This document shows, piece after piece, positions 8,203 through 17,411 of a stretch of 39,274 bases of DNA (the stretch's first letter is position 1; the number at the start of each line of letters is the position of its first letter). This DNA is from Pseudomonadales bacterium (GTDB lineage: Bacteria; Pseudomonadota; Gammaproteobacteria; Pseudomonadales; Azotimanducaceae). The notes under the pieces are model-generated. The model was not told the origin of the DNA. It was given only the letters and a program-made list of their open reading frames with translations, and made no database searches. The position numbers and the translations under genes were made by a program. The stretch is taken from the NCBI GenBank assembly GCA_019090385.1, contig JAHRWB010000014.1:1-39274 (forward strand), written 5' to 3'.

Positions 8203-8463
8203 GACAGTCTGCAAGTTTATCCTCCACTCTGCATTTTTTTGAACAATACCCCAAGAATCAAAAGGTTAGATTAAATACAGCACAATTTTAGCGCTCGAAA
8301 TCTAATCTATTACGGACATTAAGCTTCTATTTAAGGTGGAATTCTCTGGTTGAGAATGACTCGATACGTTTTACTTTATAGAAAAAAGATAGTGTTTTTG
8401 AACACTGGTGTAATCGATATATAGCTATGCAAGATGCCCGCTCTCTTCTGATAGGCTAATTTC

Positions 8464-8872
8464 TCAGATGACAACGTCCAGCATATCAGGCGTAAACCCG
8501 TATAGCCTTCGCTGTTCCACAAAACACAGTGGCATATCCAGGTGTTTACTGAGCCTGTCTAATGTCAGGTCTGGGGGCTGAGTTCCCGCCAGGATCGACA
8601 GCTGAATATCAGGTGCCAAAAAGATCAGTTTGTGGATTCGTGATAGATACCTGCTCTCCAGGTTCAATTTACTTGCCAGTAAATTAAACCTGTTGATGTC
8701 TGAATCGTTGAGTGCTTCATTCCATTGGTGGGCATGAATTAGTGCTTGCACCAGTTTTTTATCCGGTTCTTTGTATTTTTGCCCCCCGTCCAAAACAAGT
8801 TTTTTACCATGCTGGACTTCCCCCTGTTCTGAGGACCACTTCGACCCCGACCACTCTCTGGTCCTGGCTCAT
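8464..8872 (-). pseudogene. Remnant of a serine-recombinase C-terminal-type protein, frameshifted
   Basis: The frame from a TTG at 8793 to 8464 encodes KKLVQALIHAHQWNEAL...ASKLNLESRYLSRIHKLIFLAPDIQ...GTQPPDLTL...FVEQRRLYGF. This is the characteristic C-terminal segment of large resolvase-family proteins, or of the small proteins encoded next to them. Upstream, the ATG at 8872 (preceded by GGAATTGAAG) begins MSQDQRVVGVEVVLRTGGSPAW in another frame. A frameshift near 8805-8811 would join it to HGKKLVLDGG, restoring the family's RRGGRKLVL-like strand. The catalytic resolvase domain is absent. I read it as a dead remnant; a small free-standing ORF from 8793 cannot be excluded. Confidence 0.55.
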
Positions 8873-8948
8873 CTTCAATTCCAAACCAGAGAAAAGGCAA
8901 ATTCCCAATATACTGACTAACAGCAACCTCAAATGGGTATTCTGTTGA
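8844..8948 (-). pseudogene. Fragment of a GIY-YIG-type nuclease family protein
   Basis: In a third frame the minus strand reads YPFEVAVSQYIGNLPFLWF followed by GIEDEPGPESGRG. This matches the conserved middle of a GIY-YIG-associated family (pattern V..YI..LPFLW...DEPGP.S.RG) as I know it. A stop lies just upstream in the frame, and the similarity ends at 8844 before the expected YIERNSIALLSN segment. It overlaps the recombinase-type remnant, so the junction between two unrelated genes lies here. Identification is by eye only. Confidence 0.4.
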
Positions 8949-9081
8949 TTTGCATCGGAATTTGAGCTAGAAACAGCAAATAATTGCAGCGGATATTTAA
9001 CCATATAAAGAGATGCAAGAGATTGATTTAAAGTCACTTGTCGGATAGTTGATGGGTCATTTCTGATATGCAAAAGTAGGG

Positions 9082-9240
9082 TCAATCTGGGATACAAATC
9101 AACAGCTCAGCGATACTTACCTCGCCACGAAGCCCCTCCAAAACGATACATATCTTTTCTTCGGCAGAATATTTATTACGGGTTCGTCAGCGAATATCTC
9201 GCACGGTCTTTTCTGTGCTTCTTTTCTCTGTCATCATCAT
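9082..9240 (-). pseudogene. IS3-family transposase OrfA N-terminal remnant
   Basis: From an ATG at 9240 (SD-like GAGAGGAA just upstream) the minus strand reads MMMTEKRSTEKTVRDIR, stop, RTRNKYSAEEKICIVLEG, LRGEVSIAEL. That is the start of an IS3-group OrfA (VRDIRRRTRKKYSAEEKIRIVLEGLRGE pattern) with a TGA replacing one Arg codon. Similarity is lost after AEL at about 9107, and the frame stops at 9082. The sequence just beyond has two TGACCC motifs about 25 bases apart, which may be the end of another element. Not functional. Confidence 0.75.
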
Positions 9241-9343
9241 TTCCTCTCGGGTTAACGATGAACTAGACGTGTCTCTTAGGCAATTATGCTAATTGGTCCG
9301 CATGGTGCTGACGGGGTACACTAAAAAGCGGTGGGCATAAGGT

Positions 9344-9844
9344 ATGGATGAATCAGAGTTGCTGTTAACGATTGCTCAAATCTCGGTGGCGTTTGCAGGT
9401 TTTGCAAGTCTCGCAACCATTTTCGTGCATCACACTGGTCAGGATGATGCCTACGTCGATTCTGGCCGACTTCTCAACATGCTCACTGTCAGCTTAATTG
9501 TAACGGGCTTAGCTTTGATTCCGTTCGTCCCTATCCTGCTGAGGGTGGCAGATCGCTGGGTTTGGGGCGTGAGTGGCGTCATAGGCATAGTTACCATCGC
9601 TGCAACGCTGCCCGCAATCCTGCGCAGAACAGCCGTTATGAAACAGCATACAGGGTTCAAACGTTTCAGAGCCAATGTCAATTATGCGTTATTGACGGCA
9701 GCATGCGGCGCGCTACTGTGCTGCGTCTTCGGTTTGCCATCAGATCACTTGTTTCCCGCATATTGTTTCGCGCTCTTTACGCTACTCATATCAACCGGCA
9801 ACCTATTCTTTGGCGTAATCGAATCGCTTGCTCGCGGTCGCTGA
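9344..9844 (+). CDS. Four-helix membrane protein, function unknown
   Basis: 166 residues with four predicted membrane helices, at about 5-27 (LLTIAQISVAFAGFASLATIF), 45-65 (LLNMLTVSLIVTGLALIPFV), 70-92 (VWGVSGVIGIVTIAATLPAIL) and a C-terminal pair region (ALLTAACGALLCCVFGL; YCFALFTLLISTGNLFFGV), so possibly five. The start at 9344 has only a weak AAGG close by. It is the only apparently intact gene between the tRNA and the exporter operon, flanked on both sides by transposase remnants. I do not recognise a characterised family. Confidence 0.65.
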   Translation: MDESELLLTIAQISVAFAGFASLATIFVHHTGQDDAYVDSGRLLNMLTVSLIVTGLALIPFVPILLRVADRWVWGVSGVIGIVTIAATLPAILRRTAVMKQHTGFKRFRANVNYALLTAACGALLCCVFGLPSDHLFPAYCFALFTLLISTGNLFFGVIESLARGR

Positions 9845-10054
9845 ACTAATCAAACGGGGCAGATCGCGGCCCATGAGGCATGGAGCGTACCGGCAGCGGT
9901 GCTGGAGGTGAGTACGAAGAGCAACAAAGGTGGGCTATAGTAACCAGACAGAACTATTAAGTCGCTGGAATACTCGAGCTGGATCAACTCATCAGCTTTA
10001 CGGGTATTGGCAAATTAACTTTTTCTATTTCAGCTAGTCACACCAAATCTCTGA

Positions 10055-10478
10055 CTAAATCATCGCTGCGTTATTCCATGACGCAAAAGAACGCAATCTG
10101 AAATGCCGGTATGTTTCAGCTGAGACTATATGTCGCCCTAGATTGAACAAATTGTAAACAGCGGCATGAACATTCAGAAATCTCTGCGCTTGCTTCACCG
10201 ATTTGAACTTCCGTATGCCTCGCTCTCAGATTCTAGTGGGCTGACGCGACAGCTCCGCTCTATTGTTGGCATATTTTGATGTGTCGTGAACAGAATCCGG
10301 TATAAGATCTCGATGAGCCACACCATAACTTCGCAGCTTATCCGCCACAATTTTTGTTGGCTCACCCTTATATTTCTTCAGTAGTTTCTTGAATAATCGC
10401 TTTGCAGCTTTACCATTTCGCCATGCCCAACACTTCGTGAGGCAAACTTTCCTGATCTACGGCACGCCAAAGATAATG
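10055..10478 (-). pseudogene. IS6-family transposase C-terminal remnant
   Basis: Minus-strand translation gives, with at least one frameshift and one in-frame stop, HYLWRAVDQES / WRNGKAAKRLFKKLLKKY, GEPTKIVADKLRSYGVAHRD, NNRAELSRQPTR, stop, ERGIRKFKSVKQAQRFLNVH and FNLGRHIVSAETYR...FASWNNA. This is the DDE half and C-terminus of an IS6 (IS26-like) transposase, ending at a natural stop at 10055. The N-terminal third and the left inverted repeat are missing: the right-hand side runs straight into a DinB-like gene fragment. It is a recombination scar, not a live element. Confidence 0.85.
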
Positions 10479-10626
10479 TGATTGAGAGTTTCCAGAATGG
10501 AGCCAAAAAGGCCCCACGGTCTTTCGCCAATTCTGCTGTAGAAAGTTGACCCGCAGCCTCATCAATTTTTGAGTTCATCCACTGATTGCAGACGAATAGC
10601 AATTCAAAATGATCTTTCAGGCTCAT
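10476..10626 (-). pseudogene. DinB-like protein, 5' fragment fused to transposase remnant
   Basis: From the ATG at 10626 the product reads MSLKDHFELLFVCNQWMN, SKIDEAAGQLSTAELAKDRG AF. That is the N-terminus of DinB/YfiT-like four-helix proteins (metal-binding, often thiol- or stress-linked). A frameshift follows: the neighbouring frame continues FGSILETLNHIIFG, the expected first metal-ligand helix with its His. After that the sequence becomes the IS6 transposase remnant. About two thirds of the gene is lost. The apparent longer ORF to 10378 is a chimera of both fragments. Confidence 0.65.
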
Positions 10627-10825
10627 CAGCGATTCTTCTCTGTACGTCGTCAAAACCTTTTGGACAGAATGTAGCCTGATCTAAGAGACAGATTAGCTCA
10701 TCTGGTTTGATTGTCTATCGTAATGTATCTGTCGTCTCAATGCTAAAGTGTTCTGTTTTGGGGGCATCACCCCACATGCTGAAGCACTTTTTATTGCATA
10801 TTGACTCGAGAAAGGCTCGTATGTG

Positions 10826-11164
10826 TTAGGTGTTTATTAATGTTGCAGAACCAATAAAGCATAAAGTTGCTAAAAAAATGTCTATAAAAGATATTTTAAA
10901 CCAATATCTCTTTGCCAATGTAAGGTATGGCAACCCGATAAAAACTGGAAGATTCGAAAACCACGCGGATTCACGAACAACCTCCATATTGCCAAGAGCC
11001 AATGGAACATAAAACGCCGTTACCAGCATGGCTCCTAAACTGTGACTGGCATTGAATCCCATCCAAGCGTCCCACATTGTGGTTTCCTTAGTTAAAATCG
11101 GAGAGGTGTCTCTCATAGCTTTAGTGACAGTTTGATTAAGAGCATCAAATTTATTTGTGAAGAA
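10826..11164 (-). pseudogene. Membrane protein remnant (LIC_13387-like), N-terminus missing
   Basis: The ATG at 11116 opens a 96-residue frame, but family-like coding extends upstream of it in frame (FFTNKFDALNQTVTKAMRDT) to a stop near 11171. So the first helix of the protein, and its start, are missing. The recognisable core is TTMWDAWMGFNASHSLGAM, typical of a family of small integral membrane proteins, followed by two or three hydrophobic helices. The break point coincides within a few bases with the end of the alpha/beta-hydrolase fragment. It might still be translated from 11116. Function of the family is unknown. Confidence 0.55.
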
Positions 11165-11357
11165 TGTGCATTAGGTGATCGCCGATATTGACCATCTGAC
11201 CGGACGGTGGAAGTTGCTGTTTAGGGGTGTGGCGGCCGTATAGCCCGAACGCACTGAGGAAGAGCAAAGCCACGACTGCGAAACCCAAAATGCTGATGGC
11301 TACCCACTTCAGGATCTTTCTTAACTGGCGAACAGGACCCCCAAAGTTATTCAACAC
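11151..11357 (-). pseudogene. Alpha/beta hydrolase, 5' fragment only
   Basis: 68 residues starting at a GTG (11357), 9 bases after the exporter permease gene. A membrane helix (ILKWVAISILGFAVVALLFL) is followed by LPPSGQMVNIGDHLMHIL, the segment that precedes the first strand in membrane-anchored alpha/beta hydrolases (PPPG..V.IG...LHI.). The chain stops before the oxyanion strand, nucleophile elbow and all catalytic residues. The 3' part has been replaced by another gene's 3' part. The fragment may be co-transcribed with the exporter operon, but no activity is expected. Confidence 0.65.
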
Positions 11358-11365
11358 CAGGAGTC

Positions 11366-12574
11366 TTATTCGTGTCGCAATGCTTCGATCGGGTCGAGAC
11401 GTGCCGCACGTCGTGCGGGGACAAATCCAAACACCACACCTACTAGAGCCGAGAATGCAAAGGCGCCAATCACAATCGTTGGATCAATATTAAACTCGAA
11501 CCCCATGTAGAGCGATCCCATGTAAGAGCCTGCTAAGCCGATTGATATTCCGATGCAGCCCCCCAGCGTAGTCAGGATTACAGCCTCCACTAGAAACTGC
11601 GCCAGCACTTCTTTTTCCAGTGCGCCAATGGCCAGTCGTATACCAATTTCTCGGGTGCGTTCTGTTACCGATACAAGCATGATGTTCATGATGCCAATGC
11701 CGCCCACCAACAGGCTAACTGCGGCAATGGCGCTCAGGAAAAGAGTTAGAATTCCGGTCACGTCTTCCAAGACACCGGTAATCTCGGTGGGATCCAGAAC
11801 TCGGAAATCATCCTCATCCTTCGGTCGAATATTGCGGCGATCGCGCATCAGTTCTTCAATTTTCGACTTGATTTCCGAATTGGTTGCGCCAGATCCCACT
11901 GAAACTGCAATAGAGGTTATGTTCTCATTGCCGATCAGACGGATTTGCACGGCGCGCAGCGGCGCCAGAATAATATTGTCCTGATCGTTACCGAAACCAG
12001 CTTGTCCTTTTGATTCCAGTTCTCCGATGACCTGACAAGTGGCATTGCCAATACGAATTGTGCTCCCCACCGAGTCAACAGCTCCAAACAATTCCTCACG
12101 TACAGTCTTGCCCAAAATACAGGTCAGGCGTCCGCTCTGATAATGTTGCGCGGAAAAATCAGAGCCGCGAATCACCCCAGCGTTACGTACTCGGAAATAT
12201 TCCTCTGTAATGCCGGTGACAGAAGTAGACCAATTTTTATTGCCGTGCACTGTAGTGACTTTCTTGGCAACCGTTGGGGATACTCCTTCAATTCCAAAAA
12301 TGTCTTTTCCAACAGCATCCGAATCCCTGCGGGTAAATTGCCTGACAGCAGACCCGCTTTGCGGACCACGTCGATCGGCGCCAGGAGCGACGAACAGCAA
12401 CTTGTCACCAAGACTGGATACCTGTGACGTGATCCTCTCACTGGCACCTGCCCCAAGGGTTACCACGGCGATAACTGCCGCTACCCCAATCACAATGCCA
12501 AGCATGGTGAGCAAGGAGCGCAACACGTTACGACGCAGTGCCCGAAATGCTAACAAGATGGTATTTAGCATCAT
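11366..12574 (-). CDS. ABC exporter permease, MacB-type (FtsX fold)
   Basis: 402 residues, the permease of a tripartite ABC exporter. The N-terminal helix (RSLLTMLGIVIGVAAVIAVVTLG) is followed by a large periplasmic MacB_PCD domain (about 45-275). The C-terminal FtsX core has three helices: LSAIAAVSLLVGGIGIMNIMLVSV, then TREIGIRLAIGA, AVILTTLGGCIGISIGL and FAFSALVGVVFGFVPA. It ends with the typical RRAARLDPIEALRHE. Unlike E. coli MacB, the ATPase is a separate chain; its gene overlaps this one by 4 bases. Substrates of relatives include macrolides, peptides and siderophores; the substrate here is not predictable. The gene appears intact. Confidence 0.92.
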   Translation of the reverse strand: MMLNTILLAFRALRRNVLRSLLTMLGIVIGVAAVIAVVTLGAGASERITSQVSSLGDKLLFVAPGADRRGPQSGSAVRQFTRRDSDAVGKDIFGIEGVSPTVAKKVTTVHGNKNWSTSVTGITEEYFRVRNAGVIRGSDFSAQHYQSGRLTCILGKTVREELFGAVDSVGSTIRIGNATCQVIGELESKGQAGFGNDQDNIILAPLRAVQIRLIGNENITSIAVSVGSGATNSEIKSKIEELMRDRRNIRPKDEDDFRVLDPTEITGVLEDVTGILTLFLSAIAAVSLLVGGIGIMNIMLVSVTERTREIGIRLAIGALEKEVLAQFLVEAVILTTLGGCIGISIGLAGSYMGSLYMGFEFNIDPTIVIGAFAFSALVGVVFGFVPARRAARLDPIEALRHE

Positions 12575-13344
12575 GCCGATTTCGAATCACGCAGGGTATC
12601 CGTGGCTATGCGCCCGTCCAGAAAATGGACTTCACGCTGCGCGATTGCAGCTATGTCAGGTTCATGAGTTACCATGACAATGGTAAGCCCCTGCTCTTGA
12701 TTGAGCTGCGTTAGCAGGCCTAAGATTTCCTGACTCATCTTGCTGTCAAGGTTGCCGGTTGGTTCATCTGCCAACATCAGTGCGGGATCTGTCACAATGG
12801 CGCGGGCTATTGCCACTCTCTGTTGCTGTCCGCCAGACAGTTCACCCGGGGTGTGTCTTTCGCGTCCGCTCAGCCCAACTTTTGCTAGTGCTTCCCGCGC
12901 ACGGCGATGACGTTCTGCGGCCGGGACGCGCCGGTATATAAGGGGCAATTCCACGTTCTCAAGTGCAGTCGTACGATTCAGCAGGTTGTATCCCTGGAAT
13001 ACGAAGCCAATGAAATGACGCCTCAACAATGCCCGTCGTTCTCCGGACAAATAGGCGACGTCCACGCCCTGAAAAAAGTAATGTCCGCTAGTGGGACGAT
13101 CAAGACAACCCAGCATGTTCAGACAGGTGGACTTGCCCGCCCCTGATGGCCCCATCAAGGCAACGAACTCTCCTTGCTTTACCGTGAAATCGATACCATC
13201 TAAGGCAATTACTTCTGACTCACCATGTCCATAGCGGCGTTCAACCTGTTGCAGATGGATGGTAGGTACACTGCCAGGTGAATGTGCAGTCTCTTCCGCC
13301 AGCAATCCCTTATCCCGAGTCTGAGTCAATTGTGATCCGCTCAT
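12571..13344 (-). CDS. ABC exporter ATPase (MacB/LolD-type)
   Basis: 257-residue ATP-binding subunit that powers the adjacent MacB-like permease. Walker [10 protein letters not shown] is at 65-73, the Q-loop FVFQGYN at 114-120, the signature LSGGQQQR at 169-176, Walker B LMLADEP at 189-195 and the switch His at 227. [15 protein letters not shown] is typical of the MacB/LolD subfamily. A ~25-residue N-terminal extension precedes the usual [11 protein letters not shown] start. It overlaps the adaptor gene upstream and the permease gene downstream by 4 bases each, so the three are translationally coupled. Confidence 0.95.
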
Positions 13345-14552
13345 CCGAATGGGCCATTTCCTGACGGCCGAGATCTTACTTCTCTAACAGCATCAACAAC
13401 GAGAACCGCGTCTTCCGGTAGTGAGCCGGACCTAATTTCGGTGAACTGCCCGTCAGTTAAACCAATCGTCACCGAAAGCGGCTTTGGCCGGCCATCTTCC
13501 AGTAGCCAAACGTGGTCTTCCACTGTTGCAGTTTGTGCGACCACCTCGTCTGGGGGTAGAAAACGTAAGGAGCGGTTTGGCACCAGCAGCACTTCTGCCG
13601 TTTCTTCTATGAGAATCTCAGCCGTTGCTGTCATACCCGGACGCAACAACAATTCCTGATTGCTGACACTGAGCACGGTTTCATAGGTTACGATGTTGTT
13701 CACCTTGAGGGGCTTGAAGCGAACAGAAATGATTTGCGCTGAGAACTCTGTTTTAGGATAGGCATCAACTCGGAACGTCGCGATCTGACCTTCTTGGACC
13801 TGCCCAATGTCAGATTCGTCGATGTCCAGATGCAGCACCATGCTAGTGAGGTCTTCAGCTATGGTAAACATCACCGGTGTCTGGAAAGATGCAGCCATGG
13901 TCTGACCAGGATCTACTCTGCGAGAAATGATAATGCCGTCAATGGGTGAAGTGATGACTGCTTTCGAAAGCGCAGTCTCAGACTCTTTCAACAAAGCTTT
14001 TGCTGACGTCACTTTAGCTTCGTTACCGGCAATCGACGCCGTAGCCCTTAGCAACGCGGCTTCGTCGGTTTCTAGTATTTGCTGCGAGACAAAATTGCGT
14101 TCACTCAGATCTCTCGAGCGCCGGGCTTTTGCTTCAACTTCAATCAAAGTTGCCCTGGCCTCTGCCAGCGATGCCTGCGCTCCCTGTAATGAAGCCAGCG
14201 CAGAAGTCAGCCTTGCTTCCAGAGTCTGGACGTCCAATTGTGCAATCGCCTGCCCTGCTGTCACTTTGTCATTGAAATCCACAAACACCTTTTTAATCAT
14301 GCCGGAAACTTCGCTGCCGATATCAACCTGCTTGGTCGGTTGCAAGGTTCCTGTTGCTGTGACGGTAACCCGTATTTTTCCTCGCGTTGGCTTCTGTGTT
14401 ACGTATTCAAACGGTTGCACCCGAGTGTCCCGTTGCAAAAAATAGATACCGGCACCGACCACGGCAATCAGTGCTATCCACATCCAGTTGAATGACTTGC
14501 GCTTGTCATCCAGTCCTAATGCTTGCATTACTTCCTGCTGTGGCGTGCTCAT
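13341..14552 (-). CDS. Periplasmic adaptor (HlyD/MacA-type) of the ABC exporter
   Basis: 403 residues, first gene of the exporter operon. A membrane anchor (WMWIALIAVVGAGIYFL, about 24-40) is followed by the barrel/lipoyl half VTATGTLQPTKQVDIGSEVSG and KVTAGQAIAQLD. A helical hairpin rich in Ala/Glu/Leu spans about 110-190, the second lipoyl half is SPIDGIIISRRVDPGQ, and beta-barrel and membrane-proximal domains follow (LRPGMTATAEI). It would bridge the inner-membrane permease and an outer-membrane TolC-like channel, which is not encoded in this window. No dedicated regulator is adjacent. An AT-rich inverted repeat, GTATAT-N4-ATATAC (14649-14664), about 100 bases upstream could be an operator. 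Confidence 0.93.
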   Translation of the reverse strand: MSTPQQEVMQALGLDDKRKSFNWMWIALIAVVGAGIYFLQRDTRVQPFEYVTQKPTRGKIRVTVTATGTLQPTKQVDIGSEVSGMIKKVFVDFNDKVTAGQAIAQLDVQTLEARLTSALASLQGAQASLAEARATLIEVEAKARRSRDLSERNFVSQQILETDEAALLRATASIAGNEAKVTSAKALLKESETALSKAVITSPIDGIIISRRVDPGQTMAASFQTPVMFTIAEDLTSMVLHLDIDESDIGQVQEGQIATFRVDAYPKTEFSAQIISVRFKPLKVNNIVTYETVLSVSNQELLLRPGMTATAEILIEETAEVLLVPNRSLRFLPPDEVVAQTATVEDHVWLLEDGRPKPLSVTIGLTDGQFTEIRSGSLPEDAVLVVDAVREVRSRPSGNGPFG

Positions 14553-15033
14553 TGCAAAATTATCCCTGGTCCGATGGTATGCAAATTGAGTCGACTATGA
14601 ACGAATGGCATACCCAAAAAATTGCTCATACTCCCCTCACTTTACAATGTATATGTATATATACGAATGGGAAGAGAAATCCCGTCGCCATTATCGGATT
14701 TTTTTAACTGTCGGCCGCATTGATTTGAGCAGATCGGTTCCTTTTCAAAATGACCCGCCGCGCTAGATCCCGTCAAAAAGCGATTATTTTAGACTTCTAC
14801 CGGCTAGGTTTTGTGGGTGTCAGGTTGGGGCACTTTTCGGCCAGTCACCTATATCGATTCCAAATGTCCGCTTTGTAGAGTTCTGACACTGTTCGTCAGA
14901 TCAGCTTCCAATTACTCCTACTAAGGCTCTTCGAAATACTTCAGCTCTTTCTCGACAGTGGTCGGGCACTCTGAAGCAGCCTGACATTCTAGGTCGATTC
15001 GAGCTTGAACTATCACAAGTGAAACGCGGCTCA
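14553..15033. other. Non-coding spacer between exporter operon and integrase remnant
   Basis: About 480 bases. It holds the presumed exporter promoter on the minus strand and the inverted repeat GTATAT-N4-ATATAC at 14649-14664. I see no convincing ORF, RNA or recognisable insertion-sequence end in the rest. Confidence 0.4.
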
Positions 15034-15456
15034 TCAGGTGATTAGCTTATCGACACCACCATAAGAGACTGACTCCACCGCTTCGGTGAGGACGCCGATG
15101 GGCACCCCGTGACTGAAATGACCATACGTCATAGATTCGCGTTCATGGCCAATGATCAGCTTGCTTGTAGACTCGGGTACCCCCGCGGTTTCCAACGCGC
15201 TGGCGAAGGTATTCCGAAGCGCGTGAAACACGACGCCCGGGGCCTCAATTCCGATGGCGCGAATCCGCCGACCGAATCTCTTACCGATAGCCATCGAACG
15301 TAGCTTGTCTCTACCGGATTCCCTGAGCCCCGGGACAATGTAGCCGTCCTTAAAATCCTAATTGAAATTCGATATGAGCGGCTTGATAATAGGGTGAGTT
15401 GACACCTGTCGCACTGCGGCTTTTGATTTCCCTTCAACAACTCGTAGGATTGACTT
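15034..15456 (-). pseudogene. Tyrosine integrase C-terminal remnant with in-frame stop
   Basis: One continuous minus-strand frame reads SILRVVEGKSKAAVRQVSTH, PIIKPLISNFN, stop (TAG), DFKDGYIVPGLRESGRDKL and so on to KLIT. The conserved phage-integrase box is VVFHALRNTFASALETAGVP followed by KLIIGHERESMTYGHFS. The HxLR, GH and nucleophile Tyr are all visible, so the catalytic half was once functional. The core-binding N-terminal two thirds are missing, and the 5' edge abuts an integron-cassette boundary. The part from 15294 could in theory be translated, but it would lack most of the protein. It is a phage/island type, not an IntI. Confidence 0.85.
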
Positions 15457-15463
15457 GTTAGAC
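15457..15463 (-). repeat. Half attC site (5' core box) of a truncated cassette
   Basis: Directly overlapping the stop codon of the membrane-protein gene, the minus strand reads GTCTAAC, which fits the attC 5' core consensus RYYYAAC. The rest of the site is lost: the sequence passes at once into the integrase remnant. On its own it is too short to be safe; the position right after a cassette gene is what supports it. Confidence 0.45.
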
Positions 15464-15789
15464 TAATCCTCTACGTCATCGCCCTCGACAACTCCATTAT
15501 TGTCCAATGTCACTTGGAGCATTGCTTGTAATGTGGTGGGAGCAGTAATGCCCACTGTAAAAGATAGAATTGGTCTTAGAGTTGAACCATCAAGCAAGTA
15601 AACAAATGCCAGCATTCCCCCAGCTAAGGGCCAAAATGAAAACATTACCCAGTAAAGAACATCTTTCTCTGTTCGTTGATTTTTAGGGCGTTGCTGATCT
15701 TGATAAAGATTCATCATATTAAGAACAAACCCGCCTAAAGCAGCCAAAAATATTGGCTGTGCAAATACATGATTAAATATATTGTCCAT
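15463..15789 (-). CDS. Three-helix membrane protein, second gene of a putative two-gene cassette
   Basis: 108 residues. There are three hydrophobic segments (PIFLAALGGFVLNMMNLY; VLYWVMFSFWPLAGGMLAFVYLL; ILSFTVGITAPTTLQAML) with a basic loop between the first two (QDQQRPKNQRTEKD). It ends in an acidic tail, VVEGDDVED. It begins 3 bases after the winged-helix gene, so the two are surely co-transcribed and probably co-functional. I do not recognise a family. Genes in such cassettes are often phage-defence or toxin-antitoxin modules, but nothing here proves that. Confidence 0.7.
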   Translation of the reverse strand: MDNIFNHVFAQPIFLAALGGFVLNMMNLYQDQQRPKNQRTEKDVLYWVMFSFWPLAGGMLAFVYLLDGSTLRPILSFTVGITAPTTLQAMLQVTLDNNGVVEGDDVED

Positions 15790-15792
15790 AAT

Positions 15793-16056
15793 TTAAAGCG
15801 CCTCATTTCTTAAGGCGGCTAAAATCCGTTTGGTTACTGGTGTGCTCTTCCTGTATCTGTCCCGAGTTGTATAAAGTGGCTTTCCCGACTTGTTCGGCTT
15901 CTTTGAGCGCAAAATAGCCTGTGAATTTTCCAAGAATCTCTGGATTTTTTGTATGGGAATATTTGTTTCTTTAGCAAGACCCCTTGCAGTCCTCCACTTA
16001 TACTCAGATTGCTCTAAGGCTGTCAGAACTAGCAGACTTATCTCTTTGTCTTTCAT
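15793..16056 (-). CDS. Small winged-helix-like DNA-binding protein, first gene of the cassette
   Basis: 87 residues, basic. The pattern ISLLVLTALEQSEYKWRTAR followed by GLAKETNIPIQKIQRFLENS, then ILRSKKPNKSGKPLYTTRDRYRK, looks like a helix-turn-helix with a basic wing, as in small MarR/ArsR-like or replication-type winged helices. The start is at 16056, with AAGGAAG about 7 bases upstream. The start lies 16 bases after the attC core box at 16073-16079, the usual place for the first gene of an integron cassette. The target could be its own promoter or the partner's signal. Family not recognised. Confidence 0.65.
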   Translation of the reverse strand: MKDKEISLLVLTALEQSEYKWRTARGLAKETNIPIQKIQRFLENSQAILRSKKPNKSGKPLYTTRDRYRKSTPVTKRILAALRNEAL

Positions 16057-16072
16057 GTCGACTTCCTTATGA

Positions 16073-16133
16073 GCCTAACGCTCGCCACACGGGCGAGCAC
16101 ACGAAGTGTGCGTTGTGCTGGCGCTGGTTATAT
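16073..16133 (-). repeat. attC-like integron recombination site, complete
   Basis: 61 bases. On the minus strand the 5' core is ATATAAC (close to RYYYAAC) and the 3' core is GTTAGGC (perfect GTTRRRY). The arms can pair imperfectly (AAC/GTT, CGCCA/TGGCG, CAC/GTG), and a central hairpin GCACAC-TTC-GTGTGC sits between. It begins 5 bases after the stop of the membrane-protein gene (16139) and ends 16 bases before the next start (16056), exactly the cassette layout. No integron integrase gene is in the window. Confidence 0.7.
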
Positions 16134-16138
16134 GTGAA

Positions 16139-16435
16139 TTACGTGGCATGGCTGAGTTTTACCTTTTTGCGGTAATACAAAATAGTTGATAGCAATGATA
16201 AAGTAATTAGCAGAGGATAAATAAGCAATAAATCAACCCTGATATTGCATTCACCTGTACATAGTACTCTTGTGTACATTAAATATTCATATACAGAATA
16301 TAGTACCCATAGAATACCCGTAGCTATTGCCGACTTTACTTTAAGCTTGAAAAACATGCGGATATAGAGAGCACCAATTATTGTTGCACCAAATGGGAAA
16401 ATAATAAGCATTCCAATTGCAGTAAGTATTTCCAT
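16139..16435 (-). CDS. Small three-helix membrane protein in an integron-like cassette
   Basis: 98 residues with three hydrophobic segments: EILTAIGMLIIFPFGATIIGALYI, SAIATGILWVLYSVYEYLMY and VDLLLIYPLLITLSLLSTILYY. A Cys pair (VLCTGEC) lies between the second and third. The start is at 16435, only 10 bases after the core box of a partial attC and without a Shine-Dalgarno, as is common for cassette genes. A complete attC-like site follows the stop by 5 bases. The family is unknown to me; the conserved-looking Cys pair may be periplasmic. Confidence 0.7.
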   Translation of the reverse strand: MEILTAIGMLIIFPFGATIIGALYIRMFFKLKVKSAIATGILWVLYSVYEYLMYTRVLCTGECNIRVDLLLIYPLLITLSLLSTILYYRKKVKLSHAT

Positions 16436-16445
16436 TTCTATTTAC

Positions 16446-16515
16446 GTATAACGACCCAGCTCATGGGATTTTGTGAAGCGCAGCGTAACAAAAATGCCGG
16501 AGCAATGGAGACTGT
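16446..16515 (-). repeat. Partial attC-like site (3' core only)
   Basis: On the minus strand the segment ends GAGCTGGGTCGTTATAC. GTTATAC is a near-consensus GTTRRRY core, just before the start of the gene at 16435. No matching 5' core with a pairing CCCAGC arm is found between here and the stop at 16530, so the site seems eroded. Confidence 0.5.
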
Positions 16516-16529
16516 GACTATCGCACATT

Positions 16530-17039
16530 TTATTTCTCAGCTAAATCCTTCAGTGCTTTGTTCATGGAATTTAACATAGGAGGAACACCTTTCTCCATCT
16601 GCCCACGAAAAACCGGAGCGAGCAGGCCCTTAAACGATTCCGTATGATTTAATCGCGTTCCTGAAGCAGTTGCTTCCAGTTTAAATATCTTGTCATTTGT
16701 GAAAATAAATCCAGCTAGCATTTGGGCACGCCAACGAAAATAATTTGGCTCATTAAGCTCCATAATCATTGGTTCATACTCTGGGCCGTCTTTGCCCTCC
16801 TCTTTACCCACCATGGTTATGCTGAGCTCTGACCCAACCGAGGCTACACCATGTGACGCAGTAATAATTGGACTCCATTCCTGCCAATTTTCAATGTCTG
16901 TTATGATGCCCCATACTTTAGATGGCGGCGCTGAAATTTCAATTTCTGTTTTAATTTCTAGAATTTTGCTACCTTCCATACCCAGGTAGATGACCCCGCA
17001 AGAAATTAGCACTATAAATATTATGACAAGTTTTTTCAT
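16530..17039 (-). CDS. SRPBCC (START/polyketide-cyclase-like) protein, membrane-anchored
   Basis: 169 residues. An N-terminal hydrophobic segment (LVIIFIVLISCGVIYLGM) precedes a START-like ligand-binding fold: EIKTEIEISAPPSKVWGIIT, DIENWQEWSPI, then EGKDGPEYEPMIMELNEPNYFRWR, ending with the long C-terminal helix VPPMLNSMNKALKDLAEK. The family binds hydrophobic ligands or catalyses cyclisation and hydrolysis; there is no sign which applies here. Its stop is followed by a degraded attC-like region, so it is probably the third surviving cassette gene. SRPBCC genes of this kind are common cassette cargo. Confidence 0.85.
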   Translation of the reverse strand: MKKLVIIFIVLISCGVIYLGMEGSKILEIKTEIEISAPPSKVWGIITDIENWQEWSPIITASHGVASVGSELSITMVGKEEGKDGPEYEPMIMELNEPNYFRWRAQMLAGFIFTNDKIFKLEATASGTRLNHTESFKGLLAPVFRGQMEKGVPPMLNSMNKALKDLAEK

Positions 17040-17411
17040 ATTGTTAGTTTAACTCCCGAGTTAATTGCAATTGTTATGACTATTTAGGTTCGCTGAATTA
17101 GTCAGGTAACCGCGAACACTATTTGCTAGCAGACTGTACTAAAAAAAATAATCAAAGCCATACCCACAAAAACTTCACCTAACACTAACATATTAACTAA
17201 AGGGGGTGTGGCTTGTGCAGGGATGAATAGGGGAAGTAAAGACGGGATAATCTCGGCGGTGCAGCCCGGTTAACGATACAGAACCACCAAAATCTATACA
17301 TATGCTCGCACAGGCTCTTATCAACCCATGGAAGGATCTTTGACCCCGGAAGATTGCCATCCAAACAATATATGCGCTATTTCGAAAGCATCATCTCAAT
17401 ATAAGGTATTT
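17040..17411. other. Non-coding spacer between cassette region and csrA
   Basis: About 370 bases. Near its left edge is a TTAACTC/GAGTTAA hairpin (about 17050-17065) with a GTTTAAC core-like heptamer at 17047-17053, too short to be a full attC. No tRNA-Ser or tRNA-Arg, which follow csrA in many relatives, is seen here. No integron integrase is seen either. Confidence 0.4.

Follow-up and report, generated by a model that had tools for sequence, protein, structure and literature searches.

Does a short run of genes on a chromosomal contig of a Pseudomonadales bacterium (family Azotimanducaceae) form an integron cassette array that has lost its integrase? A preliminary description of positions 15457–17039, drawn from the letters and open reading frames, had proposed one complete attC-like site, two half sites and three short gene units on the same strand. 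We followed up this proposal in the whole stretch of DNA available (39,274 nucleotides, hereafter the window), which is the entire contig C206 of a 3.57 Mb draft genome (229 contigs, completeness 99.35%). Our data make it very probable that 15457–16452 is a decayed, integrase-less chromosomal cassette remnant of the CALIN type, consisting of attC-joined cassettes that were later cut by a phage- or island-type integrase gene. The features on which this reading draws are, in order of position:

15037–15456, minus strand: C-terminal remnant of a phage-type tyrosine integrase (PF00589) with one in-frame TAG
15457–15463, minus strand: R'' box GTCTAAC of the truncated attC that closes cassette B (box score 10.66; chance about 0.003 within 20 nt)
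15463–15789, minus strand: second ORF of cassette B, a 108-aa predicted membrane protein, found immediately behind a winged-helix gene here and at six other loci
15793–16056, minus strand: first ORF of cassette B, an 87-aa winged-helix protein (AlphaFold mean pLDDT 88)
16073–16133, minus strand: complete attC of 61 bp, with R'' ATATAAC (16133–16127), L'' CGCCA, an extra G, L' TGGCG and R' GTTAGGC (16079–16073)
16139–16435, minus strand: ORF of cassette A, a 98-aa predicted membrane protein
16446–16452, minus strand: probable R' box GTTATAC at the start of cassette A, 10 nt ahead of the ORF start

The attC site and other integron parts of the genome

Integrons are common in this family, as a long intI match was present in 42 of 201 same-family genomes and the DNA flanking those genes held the expected attC arrays. 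We trained a scorer on 88 attC sites from nine same-family intI loci, with the window excluded, and used the 27 most diverse of them, trimmed to 22+22 nt, for a pairing test. The expected pairing was present, with covariation: 81.7% of cells paired, against 71.5% in shuffled sites and 18–43% when one side was slid. The family sites share a layout of a 7-nt box, a 3-nt spacer, five pairs, one extra base in the gene-strand arm and then more pairs.

An ends-only covariance model (R1) ranked the attC locus first in the window, but with an E-value of only 0.54 and with a different R'' chosen. Because R1 was weak on long-loop sites even in a known array, probably through bad handling of the long loops, we replaced it with a box-plus-stem scorer under which held-out true sites mostly scored 26–40 and 3 of the 88 failed or fell below 20. 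With this scorer 16073–16133 reached 32.45 on the gene (minus) strand and 25.9 on the opposite strand. When the window was dinucleotide-shuffled 400 times (15.7 Mb in all), no score reached 32.4 and the highest was 31.0. For the covariance-model attC search suggested by the preliminary description, the model used was R1, which we built ourselves.

Read on the minus strand from 16133 to 16073, the site is ATATAAC CAG CGCCA G CAC...GTG TGGCG AGC GTTAGGC, that is, an R'' box, a 3-nt spacer, a 5-bp L stem, one extra left-arm base, three further pairs and the mirror arm. It thus has the R'' and R' boxes with AAC and GTT cores and the imperfect palindrome with an extra base on one arm by which an attC is recognized. 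The same layout, including the extra base in the gene-strand arm, is that of the 27 aligned same-family sites and recurs in the arrays adjoining full-length intI genes of same-family genomes. The placement between short same-strand genes also holds: the stop of 16139–16435 lies 5 nt before the start of R'', the end of R' lies 16 nt before the start of 15793–16056, and all genes are on the minus strand. The site therefore lies directly behind a short ORF and divides cassette A from cassette B. An Rfam scan gave no match at the array, and nucleotide comparison of the site with the fetched same-family arrays gave short chance matches only. By sequence and layout, we conclude that 16073–16133 is a genuine attC.

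This site may be a poor recombination substrate. In bottom-strand DNA folding, the canonical hairpin is predicted at −11.2 kcal/mol and the minimum at −12.7 kcal/mol, a difference of 1.5 kcal/mol, and the predicted probability that AAC pairs with GTT (pfold) is 0.16 where the median of the training arrays is 0.95. A functional IntI reaching the cell could still act on the site in trans, with low activity expected because the predicted folding of the site is weak.

The absence of intI from the window, as proposed, was borne out by a TIGR02249 profile search. Besides XerC/D-type genes, this search of the genome returned only broken intI copies on other contigs, one on C68 (a frameshift plus stops) and one on C193 (ending after position 141, at the contig edge). 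No intact intI was found in the 229-contig draft, whose contigs end near the arrays, so that an intact copy might still lie in an unassembled gap. Neither the window nor the surroundings of 15457–16452 contain an intI gene, so that the locus is not a complete integron. Short genes are also separated by attC sites on C68, on C17 and towards the end of C195. These clusters cover C68:5851–9884, C17:2273–4334 and C195:48950–50094; one of them adjoins a broken intI, and their cassettes include genes for a methyltransferase, a cupin, a hydrolase and a GNAT acetyltransferase.

Edges of the array and chromosomal setting

Both edges of the array had been described as half sites. The one at 15457–15463 is a strong R'' box, of which the first base (GTCTAAC, 15463–15457) also closes the TAG stop codon of 15463–15789. 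It is followed by the spacer AAG, as in many family attC sites, and then by the integrase frame, which reads SNKSILRVVEGKSKAAVRQV... with one TAG. Behind the box no L'', L' or R' was found. The remnant at 15037–15456 aligns with the C-terminal part of 432–465 aa phage-type integrases of relatives at 35–43% identity, in agreement with its earlier assignment to the phage or island type. As the integrase homology begins within about 20–25 nt of the R'' box, the cut in the array can be placed to about that precision, and the suggestion that the array was cut by the remnant is supported by the way the integrase frame abuts the lone box.

The half site at 16446–16452 stands less firmly. GTTATAC (16452–16446) departs from the consensus at one position (a chance of about 0.014 within 20 nt) and lies just ahead of an ORF, but it is weak: by right-arm profile it ranks 20th among 1247 GTTs, which is not significant. 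Our main reason for placing the start of cassette A here is that a cassette with its end at 16079 has to begin upstream of 16435. An R''/L'' half was sought in the 77 nt upstream (16453–16529) and is absent from them. The same interval contains a hairpin-like TTTTTGTTACGCTGCGCTTCACAAAA and a CTGGGT ahead of the R' box, which are reminiscent of an eroded attC and were not significant in the tests run.

An R' box with no R''/L'' half upstream is what would be expected if the cassettes had been inserted singly at a non-attC (attG-type) chromosomal site by an integrase acting in trans, such that a left half at 16453–16529 never existed. The broken intI copies and the other attC clusters of this genome are consistent with such an insertion, and integration at attG has been documented experimentally (Loot 2024, as cited in PMC12444791). 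However, ahead of the R' box stand AGCTGGGTC, similar to the arm CTGGGT seen in attC sites of the family, and the hairpin TTTTGTTACGCTGCGCTTCACAAAA, which resembles attC centers, so that this may be an eroded attC. We consider insertion at an attG-type site a serious possibility whose chances fall a little below even.

The decayed cassette remnant lies in a variable part of the chromosome. The stretch from tRNA-Ser to csrA measures about 9.2 kb in the window. In G019, a genome of the same genus, about 2.2 kb and two other genes separate csrA from a match to the tRNA-Ser 3' end; because this interval differs, we assign the cassette segment to a variable region. In the window csrA belongs to the gene order csrA-lysC-alaS-recX-recA, in which the genes from lysC onwards are what we take them to be from reading their ORFs; such an order suggests a gammaproteobacterium. 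The variable tRNA-Ser–csrA segment (window positions 8203–17400) also contains an efflux-type operon (11366–14552) and decayed stretches. The longer interval, and the fact that the integrase remnant adjoins the array, would agree with the segment being cargo of a tRNA-Ser genomic island, with the integrase remnant at 15037–15456 and with the attC sites as passengers. However, no second tRNA-Ser 3' end that could serve as an island border was found within the window, and the remnant is about 7 kb from the tRNA, so that we regard the island as a rather unlikely explanation.

Gene content of the cassettes

The three gene units first proposed reduce to two cassettes, one of which has two ORFs. The gene at 16530–17039, which encodes an SRPBCC protein, is left out: the same-genus genome and almost all relatives lack it, and its inclusion as a third cassette is unsupported, as no attC lies near the only close relative (69%, in G588).

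The genes of cassettes A and B are rare among relatives. Distant relatives of the cassette A ORF (52% and 38%) were found in two other families, with no attC detected beside either, and none were found in plasmids, phages or viral contigs. This ORF matched no Pfam, NCBIfam, PADLOC or PHROG family.

In cassette B, fold matches of the 87-aa model are mostly winged-helix, MarR and Zalpha domains (best E = 6e−3), and the ORF of the 108-aa membrane protein, whose structure model is poor (pLDDT 55), follows after a gap of 3 nt. The two genes are also adjacent in Chromobacterium, on a Vibrio europaeus plasmid, in G051 and on three viral contigs. The Chromobacterium copy sits behind tniA, tniB and tniQ genes of a Tni-type transposon, and in this copy and on one viral contig the pair is followed by two further related genes. 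In both places, the Chromobacterium transposon (L065 4734–6928) and the viral contig (L112 2672–5034), the four genes encode a winged-helix protein, a small membrane protein and proteins of 234–252 aa and 290–305 aa, the latter two of no known family. This four-gene unit looks like undescribed cargo, possibly for defence.

On the V. europaeus plasmid (NZ_CP064859), an attC with a score of 27.7 begins at the stop of the winged-helix/membrane pair. The pair is thus followed by an attC in an unrelated replicon, as a cassette should be, and the proposed search for the same cassettes in other integrons was successful for cassette B; no such case was seen for cassette A. The pair, this attC, a DUF262 gene and a Vibrio-type repeat make up a short integrase-less cassette stretch on the plasmid (L071 2715–5330), and by our own reading the repeat behind the DUF262 gene would be a second attC-like repeat. 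The preliminary description had held that the three gene units always being found together outside arrays would speak against cassettes. The cassette B pair does occur together outside arrays, but as mobile cargo, and therefore provides no argument against its being one cassette.

A comparison of the pair with PADLOC returned nothing beyond one weak, chance-level match. Given its genomic company, we tentatively suggest, while leaning against rather than towards it, that the pair forms the centre of a defence-like module, so far undescribed, which moves as an integron cassette, as cargo of Tni-type transposons and in prophages, sometimes together with two conserved genes. A defence role may be read from that company. 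Anti-phage systems have been described in integron cassettes (Darracq 2025, Getz 2025 and Kieffer 2025, as cited in PMC12444791). Cassette B resembles those cited in being small and multi-gene, and its pair occurs in viral-contig and transposon cargo; it differs from them in that PADLOC gave no match but the chance-level one, and its defence function is putative.

Origin of the remnant and its place among integrons

We propose that cassettes A (ending in the complete attC, 16133–16073) and B (ending in R'' only), which lie head to tail on the minus strand, were joined by attC recombination through an integron integrase supplied from elsewhere. They may have been integrated into a site other than an attC, or they may be what remains of an array that was once longer. 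Later, a phage- or island-type integrase gene, itself now a fragment, would have taken the place of the end of the last attC.

Several observations count against the decayed cassette remnant, namely that only one attC is complete, that R1 gave an E-value of 0.54, that the canonical fold is not the energy minimum, that the 16446 site has no left half and that the cassette A ORF has no relative seen in an array. The first three would also favor a chance palindrome between operon-like genes in an array that is not integron-derived, which we nevertheless consider highly improbable, since the score was reached in none of 400 shuffled windows, the site fits exactly into a gap between genes and is on the correct strand, the Vibrio copy of the cassette B unit is followed by an attC and the genome has other attC clusters.

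The decayed remnant is like a CALIN in that its same-strand cassettes are bounded by attC, no intI is nearby and the genome contains degraded integrons. The earlier classification as CALIN-like therefore stands in that a trained attC scan finds the site with no adjacent intI, but the locus, with one complete site plus halves and a truncated terminal attC, is below the default of IntegronFinder 2.0, which requires two or more attC sites of a CALIN, although the authors of this rule add that a case with a single attC can be true (PMC9024848). PMC12444791 describes similar genomes in Xanthomonas, in which the intI of sedentary chromosomal integrons is inactivated and CALINs occur at other loci. 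Compared with that description, both genomes have broken intI and attC clusters at other chromosomal loci, whereas in the present draft the arrays and intI fall on different contigs, from which their linkage cannot be read.

This kind of locus is already known, and nothing in it falls outside known integron biology. It shows that a single real attC, which default annotation rules would drop, was found by reading without tools. The locus adds a cassette remnant to a family in which integrons are common, and in the recurring cassette B pair it offers a specific candidate for a mobile module of defence or regulation.
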